A stretch of DNA of 20,010 nucleotides from a virus. The position numbers were made by a program, and so were the translations under genes. The stretch spans positions 1 to 20,010 of the IMG/VR virus record IMGVR_UViG_3300049489_000107, one strand, 5' to 3'. Positions 15,095 to 17,722 of this stretch are shown here, one piece after another. The notes under the pieces are model-generated. The model saw only the letters and a list, made by a program, of their open reading frames with translations, was not told where the DNA came from and did not search any database. Positions within the stretch are counted from its first letter, which is position 1, and each line of letters begins with the position of its first letter.

Positions 15095-15855
15095 GCTGCC
15101 TCCTTGTGGTAATGGCCTTCGCAGACCTTGACGAACTTTTGCGGAGTGACAAGAAAATCAAAATCCGCTCGCCAGTCCTTCGACTTGCCGGTGAGGAATT
15201 TCGATGTCGCGGCGTGGCCGAAGTACCACGCAAACCAGTCCAAGCCCTCGCGGCGAATGTCGTCTTTGCCCTTCATGGCGGGGTCACTGACAACATCCCG
15301 CCATCGGGCTGACAGGGCACGCTTGCGGCCATCGGACAGGATGTCCACTCGCGGCAGCATGGGCAGATGCTCGTGGTACAGGGTCACGATCTCATCCGAA
15401 GGACAGGCTGGCAGTCGGGGAGCCGAAGGCGAGCCGACGAGAACCGTAGGTTCTATGTTTTCTCCTTCCTTTCCCTTCCCTTCCCTTCCTCCCTGCGTGT
15501 CACTGTCGCGTGGCGACGCGTGCTTGACGCGTGCCCCACGCGTGGGTTCAGGTAGCGTTGAGGCTGCCTCGCGTGGGTTCAGGTGCTGATGCTTGCCAAA
15601 GGAGGGGATGTAGGCCAAAGCGTCGCCGTACAGCTTGACCATGCCGCTGTCAGTCAACTCCTTGCACAGCGCATTGATGTCGCAATCGTCTGCTGGCAGA
15701 TAGCGAATCTTGAAGGTGCGCGGCTTCCAGCAAAGCCGGCCCTCCCGGTCAGCTTCACACCACAGCGCGATGTAAAGCAGCCGAGCCAGCGGCGATATCG
15801 CCACGATGTCTTCGCTGGTGAAGAACTCGGGTTTGATCGTTCTGATTCGCGCCAT
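15091..15855 (-). CDS. Phage replication initiator, lambda O / DnaD-like (254 aa)
   Basis: Residues 1-95 (MARIRTIKPEFFTSEDIVAI, ARLLYIALWCEADREGRLCW, LTDSGMVKLYGDALAYIPSF) are the winged-helix domain found at the start of many phage replication proteins. Residues 96-150 are a low-complexity charged linker. The C-terminus WRADFDFLVTPQKFVKVCEG (227-246) is a conserved tail of the same group, likely contacting the helicase loader or DnaB. The protein would bind origin repeats and start DNA unwinding. The candidate origin lies in the DNA encoding its own linker, as lambda ori lies in O. The ATG at 15855 directly abuts the upstream stop; its stop overlaps the next start as GTGA. No helicase or loader gene is seen. 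Confidence 0.82.
   Translation of the reverse strand: MARIRTIKPEFFTSEDIVAISPLARLLYIALWCEADREGRLCWKPRTFKIRYLPADDCDINALCKELTDSGMVKLYGDALAYIPSFGKHQHLNPREAASTLPEPTRGARVKHASPRDSDTQGGREGKGKEGENIEPTVLVGSPSAPRLPACPSDEIVTLYHEHLPMLPRVDILSDGRKRALSARWRDVVSDPAMKGKDDIRREGLDWFAWYFGHAATSKFLTGKSKDWRADFDFLVTPQKFVKVCEGHYHKEAA
15539..15553 (+). repeat. 15-bp direct repeat, copy 1 (CGCGTGGGTTCAGGT)
   Basis: An identical copy lies 31 bp (about three helical turns) further on, at 15570-15584. In the overlapping initiator gene the two copies are read in different frames (LPEPTRG versus LNPRE), so the repeat is not explained by a repeated peptide. Confidence 0.75.
15570..15584 (+). repeat. 15-bp direct repeat, copy 2 (CGCGTGGGTTCAGGT)
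   Basis: Identical partner of the copy at 15539-15553, at the outer edge of the CGCGTG array and encoding part of HLNPREA in the initiator. It is probably an iteron for the initiator protein. Confidence 0.75.
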
Positions 15856-16110
15856 CTATGCCACCACCCGGTTCACACAGTCAAAACCGCCCTTCACGCG
15901 CTTCACAGCAGCCGGTATCACGCTGGTGCCGATGCGCGTGTAGCGCAGGCAATCACGGCACAGCGGGTGCGGCTGCCACGGCCTGATGAGTGCCGGCGCA
16001 CCTGCACAGGACTGCAACGGCGGATTGACTGCGCTCACCGTTGACGCTGGAGGAGTCTCCCTACTGCTAGGGGGATCAATTAAGCTAGACCTAAACGAGA
16101 ATGAAGGCAT
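15856..16110 (-). CDS. Small hypothetical phage protein with Cys pair (84 aa)
   Basis: I prefer the ATG at 16110 because GGGGAGG lies 9 nt upstream, within the end of the preceding gene. An in-frame ATG at 16134 would overlap that gene by 20 nt and lacks a clear ribosome-binding site. The N-terminal half is Pro/Ser-rich and likely disordered. The C-terminal half has HPLCRDCLRYTRIGTSVIPA and VKGGFDCVNRVVA, three Cys and a His that may bind zinc. A half-operator-like sequence (16079-16096) lies in its start region. It sits between the HNH-like gene and the initiator in the cro operon. Function unknown. Confidence 0.55.
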   Translation of the reverse strand: MPSFSFRSSLIDPPSSRETPPASTVSAVNPPLQSCAGAPALIRPWQPHPLCRDCLRYTRIGTSVIPAAVKRVKGGFDCVNRVVA

Positions 16111-16114
16111 GGCC

Positions 16115-16444
16115 TCAAGCCTCCCCTTCAACATAAGCTGCCCACGCCGCTGGGCCTCGTCGCTGATTGCACCTTCTGCAAACAGGCACGACGTTCAAAG
16201 GCTGCCTGTAGTCCCGATGGTCGTAAACGCTGGCGGGCTCTTCGCAGTCAATGCAGGGCAGCATTGCAGCCTTGGAGATGGCGCCAGACGCCACAGCCAA
16301 ATGCACCGCAGCCATAGCCCTTGCGCGTATGGCTGCCATTGCTCTCTCGCAACCCCAGCAACGCCAAGACCCCATGTCTCGACGAAATGGTGCTGCGCAG
16401 TCAATGCACACGCCCTCGATCCGAAACGGCAAAGCGCGAGCCAT
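16115..16444 (-). CDS. HNH-like double zinc-knuckle protein (109 aa)
   Basis: An N-terminal zinc ribbon (CIDC at 13-16, CWGC at 29-32) is followed by a helix and a second module: CIDC (64-67), YDHRDY (74-79), N84, and CRRC (89-92) followed by N93. The second module has the HNH pattern of two Cys pairs around Asp-His and Asn, but the usual final His position is Asn93, so catalysis is doubtful. It may be a DNA-binding relative of HNH endonucleases. The start overlaps the cro stop by 1 nt (TGATG), so it is co-translated with the first gene of the operon. Confidence 0.7.
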   Translation of the reverse strand: MARALPFRIEGVCIDCAAPFRRDMGSWRCWGCERAMAAIRARAMAAVHLAVASGAISKAAMLPCIDCEEPASVYDHRDYRQPLNVVPVCRRCNQRRGPAAWAAYVEGEA

Positions 16445-16665
16445 CAGGCCTCCGCTTGTGCTTTGTCGGTGTTGCGGCCCTCAATGTCGGCCAGCAAGTC
16501 ATCAAGACTCACGGCGCCTTTCGTCTCCAAGACGATGCGCCGCAGGTGCTTGACTGGCGCCCCGGTCGCTCGCCATTGACTGACGGCAGACAACGTGACC
16601 CCAAACATTTCAGCCATGCGGGTGGCTCGTCCCGCCTCATCTTCAAGCCATGCGTGCAGTCTCAT
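16444..16665 (-). CDS. Cro-like (YdaS-type) transcriptional regulator (73 aa)
   Basis: Residues 1-31 (MRLHAWLEDEAGRATRMAEM, FGVTLSAVSQW) give a Cro/CI-type helix-turn-helix with recognition helix around TLSAVSQWR. The RATGAPVKHLRRIVLETKGA segment that follows is typical of YdaS/Cro proteins of lambdoid phages. It is the first gene of the leftward early operon and diverges from the repressor gene, with the operator cluster between them. There is no ribosome-binding site before the ATG, and the -10 box TAAACT lies only 7 nt upstream, so its mRNA is probably leaderless. It likely binds the same operators to shut off repressor synthesis and moderate early transcription, as lambda Cro does. Confidence 0.85.
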   Translation of the reverse strand: MRLHAWLEDEAGRATRMAEMFGVTLSAVSQWRATGAPVKHLRRIVLETKGAVSLDDLLADIEGRNTDKAQAEA

Positions 16666-16672
16666 GGCCCGA

Positions 16673-16702
16673 AGTTTACGCGAACCTAAACGGCCACGTC
16701 AA
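16673..16702 (-). promoter_or_regulatory. Leftward early promoter (PR-like) for cro and replication genes
   Basis: On the minus strand TTGACG (16702-16697), an 18-bp spacer and TAAACT (16678-16673) are followed by 7 nt and the cro ATG. The -35 lies at the end of one 18-mer operator and the -10 at the end of the next, so a bound repressor would block RNA polymerase. Confidence 0.7.
16674..16691 (-). promoter_or_regulatory. Operator site 1, left cluster
   Basis: The minus-strand sequence is GTTTAGGTTCGCGTAAAC. Its ends (GTTTA/TAAAC) are inverted, as expected for a dimeric repressor site. It overlaps the cro -10 box. Confidence 0.75.
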
Positions 16703-16715
16703 GACGAACCTAAAC
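16698..16715 (-). promoter_or_regulatory. Operator site 2, left cluster
   Basis: The minus-strand sequence is GTTTAGGTTCGTCTTGAC, starting 24 bp from site 1 in the same orientation and containing the cro -35 element. Confidence 0.75.
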
Positions 16716-16722
16716 ACCTTTC

Positions 16723-16740
16723 GTTTAGCCTTAGTTGCAC
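16723..16740 (+). promoter_or_regulatory. Operator site 3, left cluster (diverged)
   Basis: GTTTAGCCTTAGTTGCAC keeps GTTTAG and the final AC but otherwise differs from the other sites. It ends 1 nt before the repressor ATG, 25 bp from site 2, so it may serve autoregulation like lambda OR3. Less certain than the other four. Confidence 0.5.
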
Positions 16741-16741
16741 C

Positions 16742-17050
16742 ATGCATGCACTAAGACGCTATAAGCTTCAACAACTCCTTGACGACACGTACAAGGGGAA
16801 ACGGGAGCTTTTCTTGTCAAAGTCTGGTCTGTCAAAAGGGCGGCTGTCTCAACTGCTCGACCCTAAGCTGCCCTTCGGGGATGTCGCTGCACGCAACCTA
16901 GAGGGCAGGCTAGACCTAGACCCCGGGTTCTTCGACGCTATGGACGCGCAGACGGTGCATTTCGCCGTCCAGTTCGATGCGTTGCCGCAGCACCTGAAAG
17001 AGCAATGGTTGACGCTCGTTGACCTGGTGGCCGGCAAAAAGCCCGACTAA
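16742..17050 (+). CDS. CI-like phage repressor lacking a cleavage domain (102 aa)
   Basis: The N-terminus MHALRRYKLQQLLDDTYKGK is followed by RELFLSKSGLSKGRLSQLLD (21-40), a helix-turn-helix, and RNLEGRLDLDPGFFD (51-65), as in CI-like regulators of many proteobacterial prophages. The C-terminus (HFAVQFDALPQHLKEQWLTL) is a short helix pair, probably for dimerisation, and no S24/LexA-type peptidase domain follows. The start at 16742 is chosen because the frame further upstream runs through the operators and into the start of cro. There is no ribosome-binding site, so the mRNA may be leaderless. The gene lies between two operator clusters that control divergent operons, which strongly supports a repressor role. 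Confidence 0.82.
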   Translation: MHALRRYKLQQLLDDTYKGKRELFLSKSGLSKGRLSQLLDPKLPFGDVAARNLEGRLDLDPGFFDAMDAQTVHFAVQFDALPQHLKEQWLTLVDLVAGKKPD

Positions 17051-17063
17051 ACCGGCTCGCTTG

Positions 17064-17085
17064 CACCCCCTCAGACGCGGGGGTG
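17064..17085 (+). other. Hairpin downstream of the repressor gene
   Basis: CACCCCC (17064-17070) pairs with GGGGGTG (17079-17085), a 7-bp stem with 8-nt loop 14 nt after the repressor stop. No T-run follows directly; a T6 run lies much later, near 17150-17156. It may reduce read-through from the repressor into the left operon but is not a canonical terminator. The remainder of 17051-17162 shows no gene. Confidence 0.4.
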
Positions 17086-17162
17086 ACAACGCTGCTGCGA
17101 ACCCCGATAAGGATCAGGATCGCCCAACATCAGGGCATCCCCCTAACATTTTTTGCCTTCTG

Positions 17163-17180
17163 GTTTAGGTTTCGCTTGAC
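17163..17180 (+). promoter_or_regulatory. Operator site 4, right cluster
   Basis: GTTTAGGTTTCGCTTGAC shares its first nine bases with sites 1, 2 and 5 and its TTGAC end with site 2. It holds the -35 element of the rightward promoter. Confidence 0.75.
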
Positions 17181-17204
17181 GAAGTGTTTAGGTTAGGCGA
17201 AACT
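17176..17204 (+). promoter_or_regulatory. Rightward early promoter (PL-like) for the second early operon
   Basis: TTGACG (17176-17181), a 17-bp spacer and GAAACT (17199-17204) mirror the cro promoter (TTGACG, 18 bp, TAAACT), with both hexamers at the ends of adjacent operators. The -10 is a weak match to consensus. Transcription would start near 17211, about 36 nt before the first gene. Confidence 0.6.
17186..17203 (+). promoter_or_regulatory. Operator site 5, right cluster
   Basis: GTTTAGGTTAGGCGAAAC starts 23 bp after site 4 in the same orientation. It overlaps the -10 region of the rightward promoter. Confidence 0.75.
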
Positions 17205-17246
17205 TCTCCCCACGCGCTGCAGATTGACGGCGCGAAGGGGCAGAGA

Positions 17247-17447
17247 GTGATAACAGCCAACATCCACAGCGCCGTGGCCGTCGAAGTGCAGCGCACGACG
17301 TTTTCGGACTTCCACAGCCTGCGTTTTGTCGTCACCACCGCTGACGGCAACCAGATCGAGATCAGCGCGTTTTCGGCCATGCCGCTGACGCTGACCGACA
17401 CCACCGCGCAGCCGGCCCAGGTCGCGGCGCAAGAGGTGGCAGCGTGA
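17247..17447 (+). CDS. First gene of the rightward early operon, unknown (66 aa)
   Basis: The start is GTG at 17247, with AGGGG 6 nt upstream and after the predicted transcription start. The longer ATG frame from 17184 would begin inside operator and promoter DNA. The product is small, soluble and probably beta-rich (ITANIHSAVAVEVQRTTFSD; FHSLRFVVTTADGNQIEISA), with an Ala/Gln-rich tail. No motif is recognised. As the first product of a repressor-controlled early operon, it would be made straight after infection or induction, a position where phages often encode host-takeover or antitermination factors. It does not resemble lambda N (not arginine-rich). Its end overlaps the next gene as GTGA. 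Confidence 0.6.
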   Translation: MITANIHSAVAVEVQRTTFSDFHSLRFVVTTADGNQIEISAFSAMPLTLTDTTAQPAQVAAQEVAA

Positions 17448-17722
17448 GCACGTTGTCAGGCTGCAGCGCCGAGGAAAAGGCTGCGATCCTGGCGCATTAC
17501 TCGCCGATGGCTGCGCAGGCCGTCGCCGATGCCCTGCCGCCCATCCCCGACATGCCCAGCGATAGCCCGCTGTGGCGCGCTGTCATCGAGTACGGTGACC
17601 AGTCCTACAGCGCCAACTCCCGCGCCCTGCTGGATGCCGCTGTGGCCGCTGTGGAGGCTGCTGTGGCCGACATGATGCGCGACTACGCACTGCAGGCCCT
17701 GGCGATGCGGAGGGGTTCATGA
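17444..17722 (+). CDS. Unknown alpha-helical early protein (92 aa)
   Basis: The start is GTG at 17444, overlapping the previous stop as GTGA. The protein is acidic and helical (AEEKAAILAHYSPMAAQAVA; NSRALLDAAVAAVEAAVADM) with a short basic end (LAMRRGS). The Ala-rich stretch at about 62-77 comes from repetitive GCTGTGG-type codons and may be a coiled coil. No membrane span or catalytic motif is visible. Both neighbours overlap it by 4 nt, so it is co-translated with them. Function unknown. Confidence 0.6.
   Translation: MSTLSGCSAEEKAAILAHYSPMAAQAVADALPPIPDMPSDSPLWRAVIEYGDQSYSANSRALLDAAVAAVEAAVADMMRDYALQALAMRRGS

Follow-up and report, generated by a model that had tools for sequence, protein, structure and literature searches.

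Genes of the repressor region

The sequence analyzed here ("the window") comprises an entire IMG/VR virus record of 20,010 bases and is probably a genome fragment. It holds a gene for a putative 102-aa repressor and, divergent from it, a gene for a 73-aa protein of the YdaS family (PF15943) in the position of Cro (Table 1). The YdaS-family protein also matches P22_Cro (E = 2e-4) and resembles the solved PDB proteins XPH1 and Cro protein 3bd1. The only family match of the repressor is a weak one to phrog_5736 (transcriptional regulator; E = 9e-6), and no Pfam family, Peptidase_S24 included, was matched. Its AF2 model (pLDDT 91) consists of six helices; the best fold match in a structure search with this model, Rep of Salmonella phage SPC32H (PDB 5d50 and 5d4z), was not significant (E = 0.1). 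The repressor alone matches PDB 7nkv/8c3k/8c3l weakly (E = 0.04); a profile of the aligned repressor-family N-domains matches these entries with an E value of 4e-27.

On the Cro side, the operon continues after cro with an HNH-like open reading frame (ORF) and a replication initiator gene. Two early ORFs overlap on the minus strand (15859-16134 and 16118-16444); the 109-aa member of this pair shows weak similarity to HNH endonucleases, and the 92-aa member matches nothing. No CII-like YdaT gene was recognized after cro, the gene in that place being the weakly HNH-like one. The operon on the other side of the repressor gene (the PL operon) comprises small ORFs and genes for a phrog_862 protein and a PolB-type exonuclease. 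No antirepressor was identified in the window.

Table 1. Genes, putative operators, and predicted transcription signals around the repressor gene. Scores are from a symmetric matrix from which the window sites were held out.
Feature	Position	Strand	Sequence	Score	Remarks
Lone operator-like site	16079-16096	minus	GTTTAGGTCTAGCTTAAT	19.9	Inside the early Cro-side operon
Cro-like protein, 73 aa	16447-16665	minus			YdaS family; PF15943, E = 1.7e-7, above the curated cutoff
PR-like promoter (predicted)	16673-16702	minus	TTGACG, 18 nt, TAAACT		Reads into the 73-aa gene
OR1 (putative operator)	16674-16691	minus	GTTTAGGTTCGCGTAAAC	20.5	Over the -10 of PR
OR2 (putative operator)	16698-16715	minus	GTTTAGGTTCGTCTTGAC	19.1	Holds the -35 TTGAC of PR
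OR3 (putative operator)	16723-16740	plus	GTTTAGCCTTAGTTGCAC	7.6	Weak match; adjoins the repressor ATG
PRM -10 (predicted)	16726-16731	plus	TAGCCT		Within OR3, ten bases before the repressor ATG
Repressor, 102 aa	16742-17047	plus			HTH N-domain and two C-terminal helices
GC-rich hairpin	17063-17086	plus			After the repressor stop; z = -3.0 for 17056-17096
OL2 (putative operator)	17163-17180	plus	GTTTAGGTTTCGCTTGAC	20.9	Holds the -35 TTGAC of PL
PL-like promoter (predicted)	17176-17204	plus	TTGACG, 17 nt, GAAACT		Weak -10
OL1 (putative operator)	17186-17203	plus	GTTTAGGTTAGGCGAAAC	18.4	Over the weak -10 of PL
First PL-operon gene, 66 aa	17247-17444	plus			No known function; GTG start after GAAGGGG

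Putative operator sites and promoters

The putative operators are 18-bp near-palindromes of the form GTTTAG-N6-CTAAAC, arranged in the order OR1-OR2-OR3 on one side of the repressor gene and OL2-OL1 on the other. The initial annotation had described four 18-mers starting with GTTTAGGTT, spaced 23 to 25 bp within clusters, with three sites before the repressor and two after it and each cluster facing a different operon. On rechecking, all four positions and strands were correct, the start-to-start distances are 24 and 25 bp in OR and 23 bp in OL, and the three-plus-two arrangement was borne out, with OR facing the Cro-side genes and OL facing the operon of small ORFs and the exonuclease. In a motif scan of the 20,010-base record, GTTTAGGTT occurs exactly four times, in OR1, OR2, OL1, and OL2 and nowhere else; when up to one mismatch is allowed, there are six matches against 0.99 expected. 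Inverted-repeat analysis reveals a mirror order, in which 16671-16691 pairs with 17186-17206 (OR1/OL1) and 16697-16715 pairs with 17163-17181 (OR2/OL2).

For scoring, 17 sites from four relatives (L001, L125, L127, and L181) were combined into the matrix. The four strong sites are among its top five matches in the window (Table 1), the remaining one being the site at 16079-16096. In 300 simulations that preserved the dinucleotide composition, no score exceeded 17.9, and none of 500 further simulated 20-kb sequences reached 18.4. The diverged fifth site of the initial annotation, OR3, holds up in position but not in sequence strength: its score is at chance level for 20 kb (0.87 expected), whereas the probability of such a score within 2 bp of the conserved place by the ATG is about 2e-4. 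An intact OR3 lies 18 bp before the repressor ATG in seven relatives (L181, L256, L312, L125, L127, L193, and L311), and its palindrome is decayed in two (L001 and L263). A counterpart of OR1 occupies the corresponding position in L001, L181, L256, L125, L127, and L193.

The earlier count of five sites thus stands for the two clusters, but it had overlooked a sixth, strong site at 16079-16096. This lone site lies about 0.6 kb from OR and overlaps no promoter; a PR-like promoter could not be read there by eye, and the relatives scanned have no counterpart. It is not accounted for by the lambda model and may be a roadblock, an extra bridging site, or a remnant.

The PR-like promoter is the only sigma-70-like promoter found in 15800-17600. 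The outer end of OR2 forms its -35 element and the end of OR1 its -10 element; in the same manner, TTGACG ends OL2 and the weak -10 of the PL-like promoter ends OL1. At the PL place, the relative L001 has TTGACA-17-TAAAGT. The predicted -10 of the repressor promoter, PRM, is not accompanied by a recognizable -35. Among the 19 loci with a 24-bp array and a KGR recognition helix (see below), 16 have a TAnnnT hexamer 7 to 11 bases before the ATG, including L001 despite its decayed OR3 palindrome, and 17 lack a Shine-Dalgarno-like sequence. Because TAnnnT lies so close to the ATG, mostly without a Shine-Dalgarno sequence, the repressor transcript is expected to be leaderless, and judging from these signals it probably is; leaderless repressor transcripts have been published for lambda cI and paaR2 (PMC8630535). 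The strong hairpin that separates the repressor stop from PL lacks a T run and is possibly a terminator or insulator for PL.

Recurrence of the array among relatives

A prophage contig of a Rubrivivax metagenome-assembled genome (L001) encodes a repressor that is 62% identical to that of the window and carries the same array. In this 5.1-Mb genome, GTTTAGGTT occurs only twice, both times in the OL of that prophage. The array recurs in Rubrivivax and in other high-GC prophages. A search of 401 genomes with the repressor profile yielded two loci (L125 and L127) that, although found by repressor homology only, combine full-length Peptidase_S24-type repressors with GTTTAG arrays.

We also scanned for the pattern TTGAC-N4-7-GTTTAG-N7-TAAAC, which represents the -35 plus OR1, and obtained matches in at least 119 contigs. 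About half of the 125 matches listed lie near Cro/repressor homologues, compared with zero among the controls, whether distant parts of the same contigs (101 regions) or unrelated contigs (119); the Cro and repressor models used here were built from homology-found loci only. The final T of the -10 TAAACT is a base left free by the scan pattern, and among the matches listed it is present in all 65 that lie near Cro/repressor homologues versus 29 of 60 others. All 18 Cro partners tested match YdaS, so that the GTTTAG operator code pairs with a YdaS-type Cro in every case tested. A further scan added two-site arrays to the set. At least 87 nonredundant repressors of the class were collected, 69 of 87 with OR sites plus two or more OL sites; because the patterns used to retrieve many of the loci already specify parts of OR1, OR2, OL1, and OL2, the independent evidence consists only of OR3, the repressor-side register, the base following the fixed part of the -10, and the gene identities. 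The operator pattern locates immunity regions in unannotated phage contigs, and the operator design, which is lambda-like and of a class already known from prophages, is widespread.

Compared directly with the proteins of phage and plasmid records, the window repressor gave no match, and no relatives were found with the 73-aa Cro protein. The HNH ORF as query led only to an unrelated context without the array. When two GTTTAGGTT repeats served as the scan pattern, most matches were low-complexity Lys/Pro-coding repeats, and these were discarded. Two enterobacterial-looking loci (L139 and L142) have no near match in E. coli genomes.

Two operator registers and the closest known systems

The collected loci fall mostly into two registers. 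Where the repressor has a KGR recognition helix, the spacing of the OR sites is mostly 22 to 26 bp (19 cases); with a KSYxSQ helix there are mostly two strong sites at a distance of 36 to 40 bp (49 cases). The short spacing also occurs at one KSYxSQ locus, the long spacing at none of the KGR loci; the remaining loci are unclassified. Within the YdaS-type class, the 24-bp versus 38-bp register thus tracks the helix motif of the repressor, and the window array belongs to the KGR, approximately 24-bp register. The long register is represented by Escherichia phage Evi, with two strong OR sites 39 bp apart as against three sites at 24 to 25 bp in the window; in its N-domain, the Evi repressor shares 97% identity with PDB 7nkv.

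In lambda, three OR sites lie about 24 bp apart, and operators sit on the elements of the PR and PL promoters. The window shares with lambda the gene order, the three OR sites, and the placement of operators over the -35 and -10 of divergent early promoters. It differs in operator sequence, in a repressor without the Peptidase_S24 domain (RecA-cleavable in the lambda type), in having two OL sites, in the distance between clusters (about 0.5 kb, versus about 2.4 kb in lambda), and in an array whose distance from the repressor ATG is shorter by about 9 bp. As anatomy, the lambda OR/OL analogy drawn in the initial annotation is well supported by gene order, strand, site count, spacing, promoter overlap, and recurrence in independent prophages, but the specific kin of the region is a different system.

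By its sequence, the window appears to be a further member of the YdaS-type immunity-region class, with PaaR2/YdaS of the E. coli O157:H7 prophage CP-933P as the closest known system. There, an intergenic region with four 18-bp palindromes at even spacing (consensus/half-site GTTTAGTAA) is footprinted by PaaR2 and YdaS, YdaS behaves as a Cro analogue, and both proteins repress PL933P, which has further operators (PMC8630535). Common to CP-933P and the window are 18-bp palindromes with the half-site GTTTAG, a YdaS-family Cro, a short repressor, OR and OL arrays, and a repressor gene without a leader (in the window, a predicted one). The window repressor may also belong to the PaaR2-like N-domain family. 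In contrast to the 24- to 25-bp spacing of the window, CP-933P has four even repeats, of which IR1 and IR3, about 38 bp apart, are well conserved; Evi is apparently of this type. The repressor HTH motif is KGR in the window and KSYxSQ in the CP-933P kind, and the paaA2-parE2 genes of CP-933P are absent from the window. The register difference is one of subclass and does not define the class. The Rac prophage of E. coli K-12 likewise has a short repressor, RacR, divergent from ydaS, and several intergenic inverted repeats, but these are of the type GCCTAA/TTAGGC, unlike the GTTTAG type of the window (PMC5700373, PMC11014345). Judged by title and the opening lines of the abstract, no other paper among those listed appeared to describe GTTTAG phage operators, and the 24-bp register may have a precedent in the subscription literature.

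Predicted working of the switch and alternative readings

We consider it very likely (probability of roughly 0.9) that the region serves a temperate phage as its immunity region, in which repressor and Cro compete at 18-bp operators over the choice between dormancy and killing of the cell. The GTTTAG-N6-CTAAAC sites would be contested by dimers of two proteins, the 102-aa repressor and the YdaS-family Cro. OR1 and OR2 lie over the -10 and -35 of the predicted rightward-type promoter for cro, the HNH-like ORF, and the replication initiator gene, and OL2 and OL1 lie over the -35 and -10, respectively, of the predicted early promoter on the opposite side, which reads into the small ORFs and the phrog_862 and exonuclease genes. 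Repressor bound to the 1 and 2 sites of both clusters would keep both lytic operons off, and Cro or excess repressor at OR3, over the -10 of the repressor promoter, would turn the repressor off. Several features sit uneasily with the whole reading: OR3 is a poor sequence match, the -10 of PL is weak, PRM has no -35, the repressor itself matches named families only weakly, and the lone site at 16079-16096 has no place in a lambda model.

Because Peptidase_S24 is absent, we infer that induction would proceed without RecA-driven self-cleavage; another route, for example an antirepressor, is likely, and antirepressors are reported for at least some other prophages (PMC3121763). Lambda-style activation from OR2 is uncertain because the center of OR2 lies some 34 bp upstream of the repressor start and no -35 is seen at PRM. 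A more detailed proposal strikes us as rather doubtful: that OR2, over both the -35 of PR and the would-be -35 of PRM, permits no lambda-like activation of PRM, that the repressor is subject instead to negative autoregulation or CII-like activation and is not RecA-cleavable, and that the lone site serves as a roadblock or an extra bridge.

Looping between OR and OL across about 0.5 kb is possible. The two clusters could also be independent promoter-operator units that no repressor bridges, which would be compatible with the immunity-region reading and has, in our estimation, slightly under an even chance. Such independence would suit the presence of only two sites at OL, the repressor with only two short C-terminal helices, and an OR-OL distance that varies among relatives from tens of bases past the repressor stop to more than 2 kb. 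It fits less well with the retention of both clusters in 69 of the 87 relatives collected and with the octamers formed by PaaR2 (PMC8630535) and RacR (PMC5700373, PMC11014345); the mirrored OR1/OL1 and OR2/OL2 pairs also speak against it, though shared promoter elements could account for their likeness.

A toxin-antitoxin pair that regulates itself through the array, YdaS (73 aa) being the toxin and the 102-aa protein its antitoxin, is suggested by the Pfam title of PF15943 ("Bacterial toxin YdaS") and by the slowed growth on overexpression of Rac YdaS (PMC5700373, PMC11014345). We rejected this reading as highly improbable since the second array is turned toward an operon unrelated to the pair, YdaS is the Cro analogue in CP-933P (PMC8630535), and the neighbors are replication and exonuclease genes. 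Least probable of all, and likewise rejected, is a role of the repeats as replication iterons or as arm sites for integrase or partition instead of transcription operators, as spaced repeats close to a replication initiator gene might suggest, since the palindromic sites overlap -35 and -10 elements in a fixed register across relatives and flank the repressor gene rather than the initiator gene.

The association of YdaS with the array supports its role as a Cro rather than a toxin. Peptidase_S24 is present in 11 of 21 aligned repressors and absent from that of the window. As the GTTTAG operator code is common to repressors with and without the SOS-cleavable domain, the DNA-reading and induction halves of the switch seem to have been exchanged independently; the occurrence of the same N-domain and operator code with and without Peptidase_S24 implies exchange of the C-terminal half.
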